This document shows, piece after piece, positions 26,786-47,085 of a DNA stretch of 64,000 bases. The position numbers and the translations under genes are program-made. The stretch is taken from positions 62,001 through 126,000 of the forward strand of contig NZ_JAENIM010000041.1 of the NCBI RefSeq assembly GCF_016595495.1, written 5' to 3'. The DNA is from Persicirhabdus sediminis. Its GTDB lineage: Bacteria; Verrucomicrobiota; Verrucomicrobiia; Verrucomicrobiales; Akkermansiaceae. The notes under the pieces were generated by a model. The model had not been told where the DNA came from. It saw only the letters and a list, made by a program, of their open reading frames with translations, and ran no database searches. Numbering within the stretch: the first letter of the stretch is position 1; each line of letters opens with the position of its first letter.

Positions 26786-27119
26786 AATAGAAGGTAGCCC
26801 CTGACACATTTGAGCCAAGGCCTGATAGTTCAAATTATTCTCCGTGGGTGTGGTCTGGACATTTATCAACTAACTAGAAAACCTAGTATTTCGTAGGATT
26901 TTGACATAATTAGTTAGCACGCGTAAGCACACAAACACCGTTGAGGTTAATCAATACTCAGTGTTAGTTAATGTCGTGAACATTTATTTAGATAGTTTAA
27001 AATTAGAATGATAGCAACAACTAACTTAACATAACATGAGTTAGCTGGCGGGTAAGGATATAAATTGATCTTCCCCTCAAATTTCGTACAGCAAGTCTCC
27101 TTTAATTTTTTTAGTTGAA
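26786..27119. other. AT-rich gene-free stretch beside the IS remnant
   Basis: About 330 bases with no reading frame worth calling. The right part probably contains the outer end of the degraded insertion sequence, but I could not identify a terminal inverted repeat. Confidence 0.35.
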
Positions 27120-27592
27120 TTAGGCTGCTAGAGTAACCTGATTTTGTTTTTTGAGGTGCTCAAATGGCGAGATATAGCCCAGTGATGAGTGGCGTCTGTA
27201 GGTGTTATAAAAGCCCTCAATGTACTCAAAAATAGCTTTGCGAGCTAGTTCTCTGCTTGCGAAATAGCCACAGCTAGGAAGTAGTTCTGCTTTTAGTGAG
27301 CCGAAAAAGCTCTCACATGTCGCATTGTCGTAGCAGTTTCCTTTGGCTGACATCGACTGCTTGAACTTATGATCTCCGAGTAACTTACGTAGTTTACAGC
27401 TTGTGTACTGGCTACCTCTATCAGAATGAAAGATGGATTTGCCTCATGGTAAATCCCATTGAGTCACAGCTGCTTCTAGGGCGCCGGTCACGATTTCAGC
27501 GGGCATGGCTCCAGCGCATTGATGCCCAACAACTAGGCTAGAATGGAGGTCGATAACCACTGATAGATAGAGCCATCCTGACTGGATTCTCG
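27120..27592 (-). pseudogene. Degenerate IS3-family transposase (OrfB, integrase core), 5'-truncated and with an in-frame stop
   Basis: The frame contains the second half of an IS3 OrfB integrase core: 'GWLYLSVVIDLHSSLVVGH', then 'FHSDRGSQYTSCKLRK' (second catalytic Asp), 'GNCYDNATCESFFGSLKAE' (third catalytic residue, Glu) and the typical end 'YRRHSSLGYISPFEHLKK'. A TGA at 27444-27446 interrupts the same frame 31 codons before the downstream ATG. Upstream, similarity stops just before the first catalytic Asp (the 'DIT' block) and the sequence runs into the repeat array. The element is therefore dead; no intact OrfA or inverted repeats are visible. Confidence 0.85.
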
Positions 27593-29608
27593 CTGCAACT
27601 GAAAAAACGCTGGCTGAAAAATATCTGAAAGGGGACACGCTCCAGCGGAAATCAATGCCGAAGGCATCACTAAAAGCCAACCCCGTGTGATGACGCAGCC
27701 ACCCCGCGGGAGAAACGCCCCGCAAACCCCGTGCCCTGAAAGGGCTCCTGATAGGCTGACATCCGGTGAATTTTCGCAAGCCAGCTAGCTAATCCACCCA
27801 GCTAGTTTTGTAAAGTACCTGTGTTATACAGGTACTTTTAGCCATCCTGTATAGCTGGCTAGCTTGACTCAGAGCTAACTAAGTCGGAATATGTCTTCCC
27901 GCCGAACCAACACCAGTTGGAAAACCAATGCCGAAGGCATCGTTAAATGCCAGCCCCGTGCGATGGCGCAGCCATCCCGCGGGGGAAAACGCCCCGCAAA
28001 ACCCGTGCCCTGAAAGGGCACCCGATAGGTAAACAATCGGTGAGTTTTCACAAGCTAGCTAATCCACCCAGCTAGCTACACGAAGTACCTGTATTATACA
28101 GATACTTTATGACACCCTGTATAGCTGGCTAGCTTAGATCTGACGAAGTCGAAATTTGTCGTCCTGCCGCAAATATGATAGGTGAGAAGAACGAGCAGGA
28201 AAAGGTCCAACGGACCGGGACACTACAGCCCAGTGCAAGGCTGAACTGAAAGTTCAACGCAGCTCTGGGTAATAGTCCCCCAAAAAGCCAGAAGCCCCAA
28301 AGGGGCGAGAGAAAGCTCAGCAGAAAAGAAATCCAGCTAGAGCTCAGAGAGGTGAGATGGAAATTCCAGCCGACCCTACAACAGCTGGAAAACCCATGCC
28401 GAAGGCATTACTGAATGCCAGCCCCGTGCGATGGCGCATCCATTCCGCGGGGAGAAACGCCCCGCAAAACCCGTGCCCTGAAAGGGCTCCTGATAGGTAT
28501 ACAATCGGTGAATTTTCACAAGCGGTCTAGCTAATCCACCCAGCTAGTTTTATAAAGTACCTGTATTGTACAGGTACTTTGTGCCTCCCTGCATGGCTGG
28601 CTAGCTTGACCTGACGAAGTCGAAATTTGTCGTCCAATCACAAATATGTTAGGCGGGGAGGACGAGCTGGAAAACTATTAGCTGGAAAAGGTCCAACGGA
28701 CCGGGACACTACAGCCCAGTGCAAGGCTGAACTGAAAGTTCAACGCAGCTCTGGGTAATAGTCCCCAAAAAAGCCAGAAGCCCCAAAGGGGCGAGAGAAA
28801 GCTCAGCAGCAAGAAAGATCCAGCTAGAGGGTAGGGAGGTAAGATGAAAATTTTAGCCGCGCTCGTTCCAGTTGGAAAACCAATGCCGAAGGCATCGTTA
28901 AATGCCAGCCCCGTGCGATGGCGCAGCCATCCCGCGGGGGAAAACGCCCCGCAAAACCCGTGCCCTGAAAGGGCTCTCGATAGTTAAACCTCCGGTGAAT
29001 TTTCACAAGCTAGCTAATCCACCCAGCTAGTTTCATAAAGTACCTGTATTATACAGATACTTTATGACACCCTGTATAGCTGGCTAGCTTAGATCTGACG
29101 AAGTCGAAATTTGTCGTCCAATCACAAATGTGTTAGGCGGGGAGGACGAGCTGGAAAACTATTAGCTGGAAAAGGTCCAACGGACCGAAACACTACAGCC
29201 CAGTGCAAGGCTGAACTGAAAGTTCAACGCAGCTCTGGGTAATAGTCCCCCAAAAAGCCAGAAGCCCCAAAGGGGCGAGAGAAAGCTCAGCAGCAAGAAA
29301 GATCCAGCTAGAGGTCAGGGAGGTAAGATGAAAATTTTAGCCGCGCTCGTTCCAGTTGGAAAACCAATGCCGAAGGCATCGTTAAATGCCAGCCCCGTGC
29401 GATGGCGCAGCCATCCCGCGGGGGAAAACGCCCCGCAAAACCCGTGCCCTGAAAGGGCTGCCAATAGGTAAACAATCGGTGAATTTTCACAAGCGGTCTA
29501 ACTAATCTACCCAACTAGCTACATGAAGTACCTGTATTATACAGATACTTTTCACCAACCTGCATAGCTGGCTGGCTTAGATCTAGCGAAGTCGAAATTT
29601 GTCCTCCC
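27593..29608. repeat. Two-kilobase array of alternating hairpin-rich modules (A A B A B A B A)
   Basis: Two non-coding modules alternate. Module A (about 255 bp) begins near TGCCGAAGGCA at 27655, 27928, 28396, 28883 and 29367. Module B (about 190 bp) begins near GGTCCAACGGACC at about 28204, 28689 and 29172. After the first A-A pair the period is 468-487 bp. Each module is made of tiny self-complementary units: TGCCGAAGGCA, GCCCTGAAAGGGC, AGTACCTG-TATTATA-CAGGTACT (A); GGTCCAACGGACC, GCCCCAAAGGGGC (B); with GCTAGCTAATCC and CCAGCTAGC at the A boundaries. Long spurious frames cross it but change between copies. It abuts the dead transposase. Confidence 0.85.
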
Positions 29609-32306: not shown

Positions 32307-34037
32307 TTACTGAATGCTTTGTTTTCTCCAATTGTCTACAGCTTTATTCAGCCGCCCAACTGTTACATCACCTTGCCACTCCTTCCAGAATTCGATAGTG
32401 CCACTATCTGGTTTATTATTGGGCTCATCTATGCGTATACGACTTGGCAATAAACTAGCGTCTCCAACAACAAGCGCTTCACCAGTATCTAAAGTAGGTA
32501 AGATATCACTAAAACCACCTAAGCTATCTGGGAGCAATTTTTTAATGACAGACTGATCATCAGAATTGGTAAGCCTCATAGCCACAAAGTTACTACACTG
32601 ACTAAGTATGGTCTTATTCACTTCCGATGGTCTTTGTGTGACAACCACCAAACTAACCCCGTACTTTCTACCTTCTTTAGCTATGCGTTCGAAAATTTGG
32701 ATGGAAATATCATCTGATACACCAGAGACATTTTTATTAGGAATATATAAATGAGCTTCATCACATAAGATTGCTACTGGGTGGCGTTCTTCAGATGGTG
32801 TCCACTGTTGAACAGAAAAAGCAAGGCGAGCGACTAATGAAACGATTAGAGGTAGGACATCTGACGGCACTTCAGAAAAGTTAATTATCTTTACTCCTCC
32901 ATTCCCATTTTCATCGTTACTTCCCAAAAGAGCATCAGCCAACCTATTTAACCAGTCAAATTCTAAAACATCTGCTCCACCTTGGAACAAAAATCCTAAA
33001 CGACGATCTGATATTTTATTTTCTAAGCGAGAAATCATTCTGCTCAGTTTACCGTTAAACTCACCAGCCTTGTTAGTCCCTGCTCGAGCACCTGGTACCC
33101 GCTCAATGTTGATAGCATTTAACGCATGAATCAATGATGACAAATCAAAAGGAACTGGGCTATCAACTGTAAAGTTATCTAAAATATCTTGGTAACCACC
33201 GCTTTCTAAGTATAGGGTTTTTGCTGAGTTGACTTCTCTCGCCATTAGCATTGCTTGGTTTGGCGCATTTTGATCACTGCGATCAACGAATAATGAAACT
33301 AATGCTTCATATGATAGCAGCCAATAAGGTAGGTAAATTGCACCGTCTGCCAAGGTTCGACTTGACTCTATGTCACTAGGCCCGGCAACTTTGAAGTGAC
33401 TAATTCCTTCTCCCTCTACAGGAGAGTACTCACCGTGTAAGTCGAAAACTATTGCATTTGCATTTTTCAGCTCAGAAACTTGCTCAATTATTCGAGCTGT
33501 CGTCCAAGATTTACCAGCCCCTGTGCTTCCTCCGATAAAAGCATGTCGCTGAAAAAATTTATTACCATTTAAGTAAGCTACCGCATTTTCATCTAAGGTG
33601 TATTTACCTAAAGTTAGAGAATTACCATCAGCTTCTGCGTGGGAAATAACTCTCATGAAAGAAGTTAGTCTTTCTCCCTCCAATGCAAAGCAATTTGCAT
33701 CGATTTCAGGAACGCTTTCTAGTGTGCGACGAAAAATGTTTCTATTAATTCCTTCAGCGTCAATCAATGAGCCTATCAATGCTACTTTGCATAAGTTTTG
33801 TTCATCAGAAGGTTCTTCTTGTTCTTCGGTAGCGGAAGAGGTTAGCTTTTTTCTGGTAACTTGATTGATAATTCCAATTAAATGCTGACCCGGTTTACTA
33901 CTTTGTAATACTGCTAACCTATTGACCTGCAACCTTTTTAGGAGTTCGGTGTCATTTATTTCTACAACAACTGTTGCAGTATCTACGGAAGCTACTTTCC
34001 CTAAAGCTTCATCGTCATTAAAATTTAAAATAGTCAT
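32307..34037 (-). CDS. HerA-type DNA translocase/helicase (DUF87), partner of SIR2
   Basis: 576 residues. N-terminal HAS-barrel-like beta region (about 1-75, 'VASVDTATVVVEIND'), then a FtsK/HerA P-loop ATPase: Walker A 'GGSTGAGKSWTTARI' near residue 165, Walker B 'VAILCDEAHLYIP' near 425, the sensor region 'VVVTQRPSEVNKTILSQC', and an arginine-rich end. HerA hexamers translocate DNA. Paired with a SIR2 NADase they form the Sir2-HerA antiphage complex known from experiments in other bacteria. The gene starts 8 bp after the SIR2 stop, so the two are co-transcribed. Confidence 0.93.
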   Translation of the reverse strand: MTILNFNDDEALGKVASVDTATVVVEINDTELLKRLQVNRLAVLQSSKPGQHLIGIINQVTRKKLTSSATEEQEEPSDEQNLCKVALIGSLIDAEGINRNIFRRTLESVPEIDANCFALEGERLTSFMRVISHAEADGNSLTLGKYTLDENAVAYLNGNKFFQRHAFIGGSTGAGKSWTTARIIEQVSELKNANAIVFDLHGEYSPVEGEGISHFKVAGPSDIESSRTLADGAIYLPYWLLSYEALVSLFVDRSDQNAPNQAMLMAREVNSAKTLYLESGGYQDILDNFTVDSPVPFDLSSLIHALNAINIERVPGARAGTNKAGEFNGKLSRMISRLENKISDRRLGFLFQGGADVLEFDWLNRLADALLGSNDENGNGGVKIINFSEVPSDVLPLIVSLVARLAFSVQQWTPSEERHPVAILCDEAHLYIPNKNVSGVSDDISIQIFERIAKEGRKYGVSLVVVTQRPSEVNKTILSQCSNFVAMRLTNSDDQSVIKKLLPDSLGGFSDILPTLDTGEALVVGDASLLPSRIRIDEPNNKPDSGTIEFWKEWQGDVTVGRLNKAVDNWRKQSIQ

Positions 34038-34045
34038 ATCTTTCC

Positions 34046-35065
34046 TTACATTATTAAACTCATGAAGCCTTGTAGTGACCAGAAATCGCCATCTACTTCT
34101 ACTGGACCATCTAATAGGGAGCTATAAATTCTAGATTTGTTGTTATGAGCCGCTTCAATGGCCAAGTATTTATTTGTACCTTCATGGGCGATGAACTTTT
34201 TCGTGGCATCAGTTAATTCATAAGTAATGATAATCACCGAGGCTCCATTGTTAGCACATCGATTTACCAGTTTCGTTTGGATATGTTCATCATTGAAGCC
34301 AAACCCTACGCACAAGTAAGCAGAGGCTTCATCCATTACGTCGTCAGATTCATGGATGATTGTTTTGTAGGGTTCTTTATGAGTACTTCGGTACTTTTCA
34401 ATACCCGGTGTTACTATTAGCGGTGTTAAGCCATCCGGGATTTCATTAATGTTACTTAAAAACGTAATAACACCATTAGAATTAGTGAACCAACCAAGAG
34501 AGCCATGAACTTTCCAGATATTCACCTGTCTAGAGCATGATAAGTAGTTCTTCCTAGCGCTATGGCCTCTATAGCCATGAGAGAATCCAGTGTAATGATG
34601 AATACTTTCTTGTTCACATGCATATTCTGCTAAGCGATCATAATTAGGTGTAATTATGTTTAGCTCTCTAGCGGTGCTTCTAAACATATGTTTCAACAAC
34701 TTGCCTAATGGAAATAAAGTGGAGTTATTTAATGAATCTTTAAATACTTTAAAGTCTTCTGGAGCTAGAAGGGTCCATGTTTCGTAAACTATTCTACAAG
34801 TCAGCTCAGTTGATAAGGGTACATCATGTAATGCTGTTTCTAAATCTATGCCTGCATTCAGTTTCTCGCAAAAATTACACCAAGAAGCTTTATCGTTACC
34901 GGGTAAATCGGCCAAATGGACATGGGCCATAAGATGCTTTGCTAAGTTCCCCATTCCAGACATGCCAAAAGCAGCAGAAGCCCCACTCCCTAATATAATA
35001 ACAGGAGTATTTCTGTAATAATCTTGAGCTTGTTTTGATATTATTTCTAGGGTTTCTTTAGACAT
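34046..35065 (-). CDS. SIR2-domain protein of a SIR2-HerA defence pair
   Basis: 339 residues. SIR2-type Rossmann motifs in order: 'VIILGSGASAAFGMSGMG' (residues about 19-37), 'NIITPNYDRLAEYACEQ' (about 147), 'WKVHGSLGWF' (about 184, catalytic-type His), 'TPLIVTPGIEK' and 'AYLCVGFGFNDEHIQTKL' (about 255). No four-cysteine zinc site is visible, as in defence SIR2 proteins (SIR2_2/SIR2-like), which hydrolyse NAD+ to stop phage growth. It is first in a two-gene unit with herA. The promoter should lie in the 35066-35403 gap. Confidence 0.92.
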   Translation of the reverse strand: MSKETLEIISKQAQDYYRNTPVIILGSGASAAFGMSGMGNLAKHLMAHVHLADLPGNDKASWCNFCEKLNAGIDLETALHDVPLSTELTCRIVYETWTLLAPEDFKVFKDSLNNSTLFPLGKLLKHMFRSTARELNIITPNYDRLAEYACEQESIHHYTGFSHGYRGHSARKNYLSCSRQVNIWKVHGSLGWFTNSNGVITFLSNINEIPDGLTPLIVTPGIEKYRSTHKEPYKTIIHESDDVMDEASAYLCVGFGFNDEHIQTKLVNRCANNGASVIIITYELTDATKKFIAHEGTNKYLAIEAAHNNKSRIYSSLLDGPVEVDGDFWSLQGFMSLIM

Positions 35066-46257: not shown

Positions 46258-47085
46258 GCGAGATGGTTTCTGGCGTCCTTTCAGGACACGGTGCTTAGGA
46301 GGAGTGATCTCGGGGCTAAAGCCCCGAGCTTTGTGCTTATGCGCCTTCAGCGCAATGGCTAGCCGCAAGTGGTGTATCCCGCACCAGCGGGAGGACCTTG
46401 ATCGCAGCGAACCTTAGGCCGCTGGCCGTACCTGCAGCGTAGCGAACCTTCATCCCGCGTCAGCGGGAGACCTTAAGCGCAGCGAACCTTAGGCCGCTGG
46501 CCGTACTTGCAACGAAGTGAACCTGCATCCGCGCTAGCGGGAGAACCTTAAGCGCAGCGAGCTGTGGCGCTCTTTCAGAGCTTTTCCTGCTGGCTGGCGA
46601 TTTACCTTGGGTTGCGTTGCCCCTATGGGGCGGCCTTACCCAAGGCTAGGCTGTTTCACGCCCTTGGCGTTTATCGGAAAGATAGCGAACCTTAGGCCGC
46701 AGGCCGTACTTGCAACGAAGTGGACCTGCACCCCGCGGCTAGCGGGAGACCTTAAGCGCGGCGAGTTGTGGCGCTCTTTCAGAGCTTTTCCTGCTGGCTG
46801 GCGATTTACCTTGGGTTGCGTTGCCCCTATGGGGCGGCCTTACCCAAGGCTAGGCTGTTTCACGCCCTTGGCGTTTATCGGAAAGATGGCGAACCTTAGG
46901 GCGCGGGCCGTACCTGCAACGAAGTGGACCTTAGGCCGTACCTGCAGCGTAGCGAACCTTCATCCCGCGCCAGCGGGAGAACCTTAAGCGCAGCGGACCT
47001 TAGGCCGCAGGCCGTACCTGCAACGAAGTGGACCTGCATCCAGCGCCAGCGGGAGACCTTAAGCGCAGCGAACCATAGGTTGCAG
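46258..47085. repeat. Array of mini-hairpin modules with ACC/TTAA spacers
   Basis: Non-coding array made of short self-complementary words: GGCCGCTGGCC, GCAGCGTAGCG, CCCGCGTCAGCGGG and AAGCGCAGCG, each ended by an (A)ACC or similar spacer. The set recurs in the same order about every 75-80 bp. At the left end are GGGGCTAAAGCCCC and GCGCCTTCAGCGC. Frames that cross it read as nonsense peptides ('MGRPYPRLGC') and are not genes. Contains the 117-bp duplication below. Confidence 0.8.
46567..46887. repeat. Perfect 117-bp direct duplication inside the array
   Basis: 46567-46683 and 46771-46887 are identical (from GCGCTCTTTCAGAGC to ATCGGAAAGAT) and 204 bp apart. Each copy holds CCTTGGGT/ACCCAAGG and GCCCCTATGGGGC hairpins. 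Identity suggests a recent duplication. Confidence 0.9.

Follow-up and report, generated by a model that had tools for sequence, protein, structure and literature searches.

Three-hairpin repeat units in Persicirhabdus sediminis as probable REP-type partners of TnpA_Y1 subclass 1.2 transposases

The window analysed here, a stretch of 64,000 nucleotides from Persicirhabdus sediminis (Verrucomicrobiota, Akkermansiaceae; contig NZ_JAENIM010000041.1, positions 62,001 to 126,000), carries an array of eight repeat units at 27655-29473, all on the + strand and in the order A A B A B A B A. The five A units, at 27655-27760, 27928-28034, 28396-28502, 28883-28989 and 29367-29473, score 91.4, 119.7, 108.0, 115.9 and 112.4 bits with R2, a structure model of the A units (range 91-120 bits), and the three B units, at 28200-28320, 28686-28806 and 29170-29290, score 124.5, 124.7 and 125.5 bits with R1, the structure model of the B units (range 124-126 bits). 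This is the composition of five A and three B modules given by the first-pass annotation, and a repeat search returned the same families. The block at 28608-29391 (+ strand) was recently duplicated with a period of about 484 nt including spacers, 28608-28907 being 98% identical to 29092-29391. Behind each A unit lies a further, distinct palindrome, AAGTACCTGTATTATACAGATACTT (27811-27838, 28079-28115, 28547-28583, 29030-29070 and 29526-29554), and near-identical copies of 23-27 nt occur elsewhere in the genome (L020, L021, L022).

On its left the array adjoins a truncated IS3-family element with an integrase core (rve; rve_2/rve_3) at 27066-27579 on the - strand, whose homology to its other genomic copies stops at 27579, placing the array edge at 27580. 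A clean insertion of the array into the IS3 element was rejected because the missing IS3 part was not found on the far side of the array, and a phage or plasmid origin was discarded for want of any match in a nucleotide search. No known RNA family reached its gathering score when the window was compared with Rfam. At 32307-35065, a HerA-like ATPase (DUF87) adjoins a SIR2_2 protein, forming a likely SIR2-HerA defence pair; the pair that had been noticed near the array is therefore real, and no tie between it and the array was found. The window also contains a second three-hairpin array at 46260-46878 on the - strand, with two B-like units at 46555-46674 and 46759-46878 (span 46555-46878; R1 80.8 and 81.9 bits) and one unit at 46260-46357 that resembles the Rfam family RF01687 (R2 30.3 and R1 29.9 bits; RF01687 29.8 bits, E 1.4e-4, at 46309).

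Every module follows a common plan: a small hairpin (H1, stem of about 5-7 bp), 10-13 nt ending in [CT]AG, a long hairpin (H2, 7-8 bp, sometimes with an inner hairpin), 20-27 nt, and another small hairpin (H3, 5-7 bp). In the fourth A unit these are TGCCgaaGGCA, CCCCGTGCGATGGCgcaGCCATCCCGCGGGG and GCCCTgaaAGGGC, respectively. The [CT]AG sits at the foot of H2, which is the position of the GTAG guide in classical REPs. Since R1 also recovers four of the five A modules (E 2e-4 to 0.012), A and B share one plan. The loops are mostly 3 nt long, in agreement with the earlier description of the modules as chains of tiny hairpins. In an alignment of 30 B copies from this genome, 98.0% of stem cells were paired compared to 85.0% in shuffles, 16 of 23 pairs had changes on both sides, and 86 cells were compensatory against 21.6 in shuffles (a value of 86 was reached by 0 of 500). 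The 18 A copies gave 95.4% paired cells and 31 compensatory cells against 9.7 in shuffles (again 0 of 500). Controls with slid stems collapsed for both families, although the structure was drawn on the same copies, so that this control favours it, and the shuffles ignore relatedness. Compensatory changes, which the first-pass annotation had proposed, thus exist in the stems of H1, H2 and H3. The example cited for them is of another kind: CAGGTACTT/CAGATACTT belongs to a spacer palindrome and alters one side alone; the left arm, AAGTACCTG, is constant in the copies, so CAGATACTT just breaks the pair. Folded as DNA, B reached z values of -4.3 on one strand and -3.4 on the other, and A alone was weakly better than its shuffles (z about -1.7). 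On the strand read from H1 to H3, G-T cells exceeded A-C cells by 30 to 7 outside the loop-closing pairs, a count that comes from few independent sites.

The first-pass annotation had proposed a search of the genome for both modules, with a single occurrence counting against its reading; many copies were found. At E <= 0.01 R1 matched 121 places, and some 90 of these lay outside the array and scored at least 65 bits; R2 matched 57 places, 14 of them outside the array with at least 67 bits, the weaker matches of the two models overlapping each other. As judged with a simple gene caller on the fetched stretches, 60 of 61 strong units were intergenic, compared to 23% for random placement. Their orientation relative to neighbouring genes was mixed, and convergent genes were the commonest context (22/59). 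Nucleotide-level conservation of the units outside this genome was not found because the units diverge fast, and structure models were therefore needed. Some other repeats were seen along the way. At L066:15395-16018, tandem RF01687 units with a 135-nt period overlap a repetitive ORF of 200 aa that is probably spurious. In the fetched genome stretches and in the window, two short sequences are strongly over-represented relative to base composition, CCAGCTAG by 18-26 fold and AGCTAGCT by 13-19 fold; they are about 3-5 times denser between genes and resemble a highly iterated palindrome.

The genome contains 25 matches to Y1_Tnp, six of which are short proteins. Each of the six short Y1/HUH genes stands between three-hairpin units that are inverted relative to each other and have a sequence version of their own. 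A-type units surround the gene at L067:5275-5727, and B-type units surround those at L068:5225-5674 and L066:5524-5973, whose proteins form the most similar pair among the six (50%). At L068, short tandem repeats of the type GTGTCAGGCATCATCAAGAAAA adjoin the B-type units on both sides of the gene. The six proteins match solved IS200/IS605-type transposases by sequence (2xm3, E 6e-15). The TnpA_Y1 subclass 1.2 is defined by the motifs DH[IV]H, WQ and Y---Q--HH and a length of about 148 aa, and is described as low-copy, mostly found in Cyanobacteria and Bacteroidetes, and without a REP partner (Quentin et al. 2018, PMC6006769). The aligned proteins carry DH[VL]H (DHLH in one of six), WQ and Y---Q--HH within 147-150 aa and so agree with this subclass in motifs and length; they also agree in the small number of copies and in their low mutual identity, as the six genes are single-copy and their products 36-50% identical. 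The published absence of associated REP-like structures does not hold here, since all six genes, like most of the foreign ones, have three-hairpin units beside them; these flanking units are a departure from the published description. Plasmids yielded the transposase in four cases only, at less than 60% identity. The genome has about 18 further Y1 genes (L070, L071, L076 and others), most encoding 370-445 aa and several near contig ends, which resemble TnpA_Y1 subclass 2.3; the three that were read out show NHFH and Y-DLNP. These long genes were rejected as partners of the array, being of a different kind and having no A or B model matches in most of their loci.

Relatives of the six transposases were collected from contigs of Verrucomicrobiota, Planctomycetota, Kiritimatiellota, Lentisphaerota, Acidobacteriota, Deltaproteobacteria, Bacteroidota, Ignavibacteria, Calditrichota, Fibrobacterota and others, and from whole genomes of the class. 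In 55 of 99 loci the upstream and downstream flanks matched each other as inverted repeats more strongly than the 99th percentile of mismatched pairs. A mechanical search for three hairpins gave 1.41 units per kb in the flanks, 0 in shuffles and 0.037 per kb farther away; the H1-H2 spacer measured 10-13 nt in 50 of 58 units, most units had [CT]AG at the foot of H2, and the loops were AAC, GAA, GTA or AAA. The strongest test applied R1, trained solely on the B units of this genome, to 105 foreign subclass 1.2 loci. Of 172 matches, 102 fell at gene edges, within 9% of the DNA, and 96 of these had the predicted orientation (+ upstream, - downstream) compared to 6 with the other. At least one gene-edge match was present in 62 of the 105 loci, and R1 recognised no unit at a gene edge in about 40% of them. 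Since 28 of the loci had been chosen partly for clear flanks, the other 77 were also counted separately, and 37 of them had at least one correctly placed unit. Inverted units around subclass 1.2 transposase genes thus occur in bacteria of about ten phyla.

Part of the unit has been catalogued before. The 46-nt consensus of RF01687, the Acido-Lenti-1 RNA of Weinberg et al. 2010 (PMC2864571), aligns as the reverse complement of H1 - 12 nt - H2 (H2 - 12 nt - H1 on the opposite strand), its CUA being the complement of the TAG foot, and spans only the H1-H2 half of the unit. A 2026 paper (PMC13298647) treats RF01687 as an RNA and suggests possible regulation of protease genes in Tannerella; no paper linking the family to a transposase was found among the openly readable papers searched. 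RF01687 scores above gathering symmetrically on both flanks of the gene in several loci (L120, L159, L177, L128, L116, L135). In the present genome it does so around the gene of L064 and in other units, and the units of the window itself stay below the threshold of 37 bits (15.5 bits in a B module, 29.8 bits at 46309). Across 141 genomes of the class, RF01687 was present in 42, a subclass 1.2 gene (E < 1e-20) in 40, and both in 36 compared to 12 expected (hypergeometric p 8e-23, without correction for relatedness); six genomes had RF01687 without a detected transposase and four the transposase without RF01687. In 14 control genomes none was found. Head-to-head RF01687 doublets about 150 nt apart, which look REPIN-like, were seen in G069, G085, G061 and G093.

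The closest known system is that of REPs and their RAYT/TnpA_REP transposases (E. coli type, TnpA_Y1 class 2). Common to both are a small, low-copy Y1 HUH transposase between inverted hairpin repeats, many dispersed and mainly intergenic copies without a gene, including doublets and arrays, one repeat family per transposase, and a short conserved foot 5' of a hairpin. However, the enzyme here belongs to subclass 1.2 (Y---Q--HH) rather than class 2 (Y---NP), and the unit, about 95-120 nt long, comprises three hairpins rather than the single GTAG/GTGG-tagged hairpin of 21-65 nt, with a foot that is mostly [CT]AG (N[CT]AG) and seldom GTAG. The array is therefore best read as a cluster of REP-type units that works like a REP system while lacking two classical REP features, and to the question of whether it is a known element family the answer is that it is related to REP/RAYT without being a plain member. 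BIMEs and REPINs likewise form composite arrays, and relatives have comparable head-to-head RF01687 doublets (G069, G085), but the units here are larger and all those of the window array share one orientation. IS200/IS605 elements (TnpA subclass 1.1) have a related transposase and subterminal hairpins, but one hairpin per end, a different Y motif and multicopy, near-identical elements, in contrast to six genes with products 36-50% identical and three-hairpin ends.

Descent from such an element, with the units as decayed ends of a conventional IS200 insertion sequence, would account for the shared enzyme fold family and for an IS-sized element with structured ends. It seems very unlikely to us, given single-copy genes that differ this much within one genome next to numerous units, three hairpins per end instead of one, and the existence of arrays without a gene. 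That the units are ordinary passive repeats, i.e. transcription terminators or spacers amplified by recombination, with no link to a transposase, would fit the many units between convergent genes and the amplification of the A-B block by duplication. It leaves unexplained both the inverted units at subclass 1.2 genes in about ten phyla and the co-occurrence of RF01687 with the transposase; it was already disfavoured by the R1 test on foreign loci, and we regard it as extremely improbable.

The remaining alternative, genuine small RNAs of the Acido-Lenti-1 type travelling with the transposase element or serving it, has the Rfam entry as an sRNA on its side, together with covarying stems, as RNA would also show, and the excess of G-T over A-C cells, although this comes from few sites and single-stranded DNA would look alike. 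Yet the G-T excess lies on the strand opposite to the Rfam model, the loops are mostly AAC, GAA, GTA or AAA triloops instead of GNRA tetraloops, the orientation to neighbouring genes is not constant, and the units stand as mirror pairs, one per strand, tight against both ends of the gene. We therefore consider small RNAs very unlikely, and what RF01687 describes as an RNA gene most likely represents the end of a mobile DNA element. Of the options in the first-pass annotation, which included a structured RNA, a replicating repeat element and a recombination scaffold, the repeat element is supported by the dispersed intergenic copies, the mirror-image copies at transposase genes and the covarying hairpins; a structured RNA is how Rfam lists half of the unit, yet the anatomy speaks for a DNA element.

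The A and B modules are thus very probably REP-type non-autonomous DNA repeats of small HUH (Y1) transposases of TnpA_Y1 subclass 1.2, clustered at this locus. The autonomous form would be compact, with unit - tnpA - inverted unit taking up about 650 nt and the start and stop codons mostly lying near the ends of the units. Each unit is a chain of three hairpins able to form in single-stranded DNA. Judging from this anatomy and the known chemistry of Y1 transposases, TnpA might bind the hairpins in single-stranded DNA, cut near their feet and move or copy units into intergenic sites. In the window, two families would have piled up beside the IS3 remnant, and an A-B block would then have been amplified by tandem duplication. 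In the genus of G006, a site bordered by the same two genes exists in three differing states: the element is present in G006 (L247), a related element lies in opposite orientation in G199 (L271), and G018 (L270) has 66 nt with one leftover small hairpin. A clean empty site was looked for in this genus and not found. These states show variation, not how it arose, and deletion or inversion also fits.

We further think it rather likely that subclass 1.2 TnpA and three-hairpin ends together make up an undescribed, phylum-spanning family of single-stranded DNA mobile elements with REP-like non-autonomous offspring, Acido-Lenti-1 being its end and not an RNA gene. This would supply a partner repeat for a transposase subclass described as lacking one, and offer an explanation for an Rfam family that has lacked one since 2010 and continues to be taken for a possible regulatory RNA. 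It also serves as a warning that covarying hairpins emerging from comparative RNA searches may be DNA elements.
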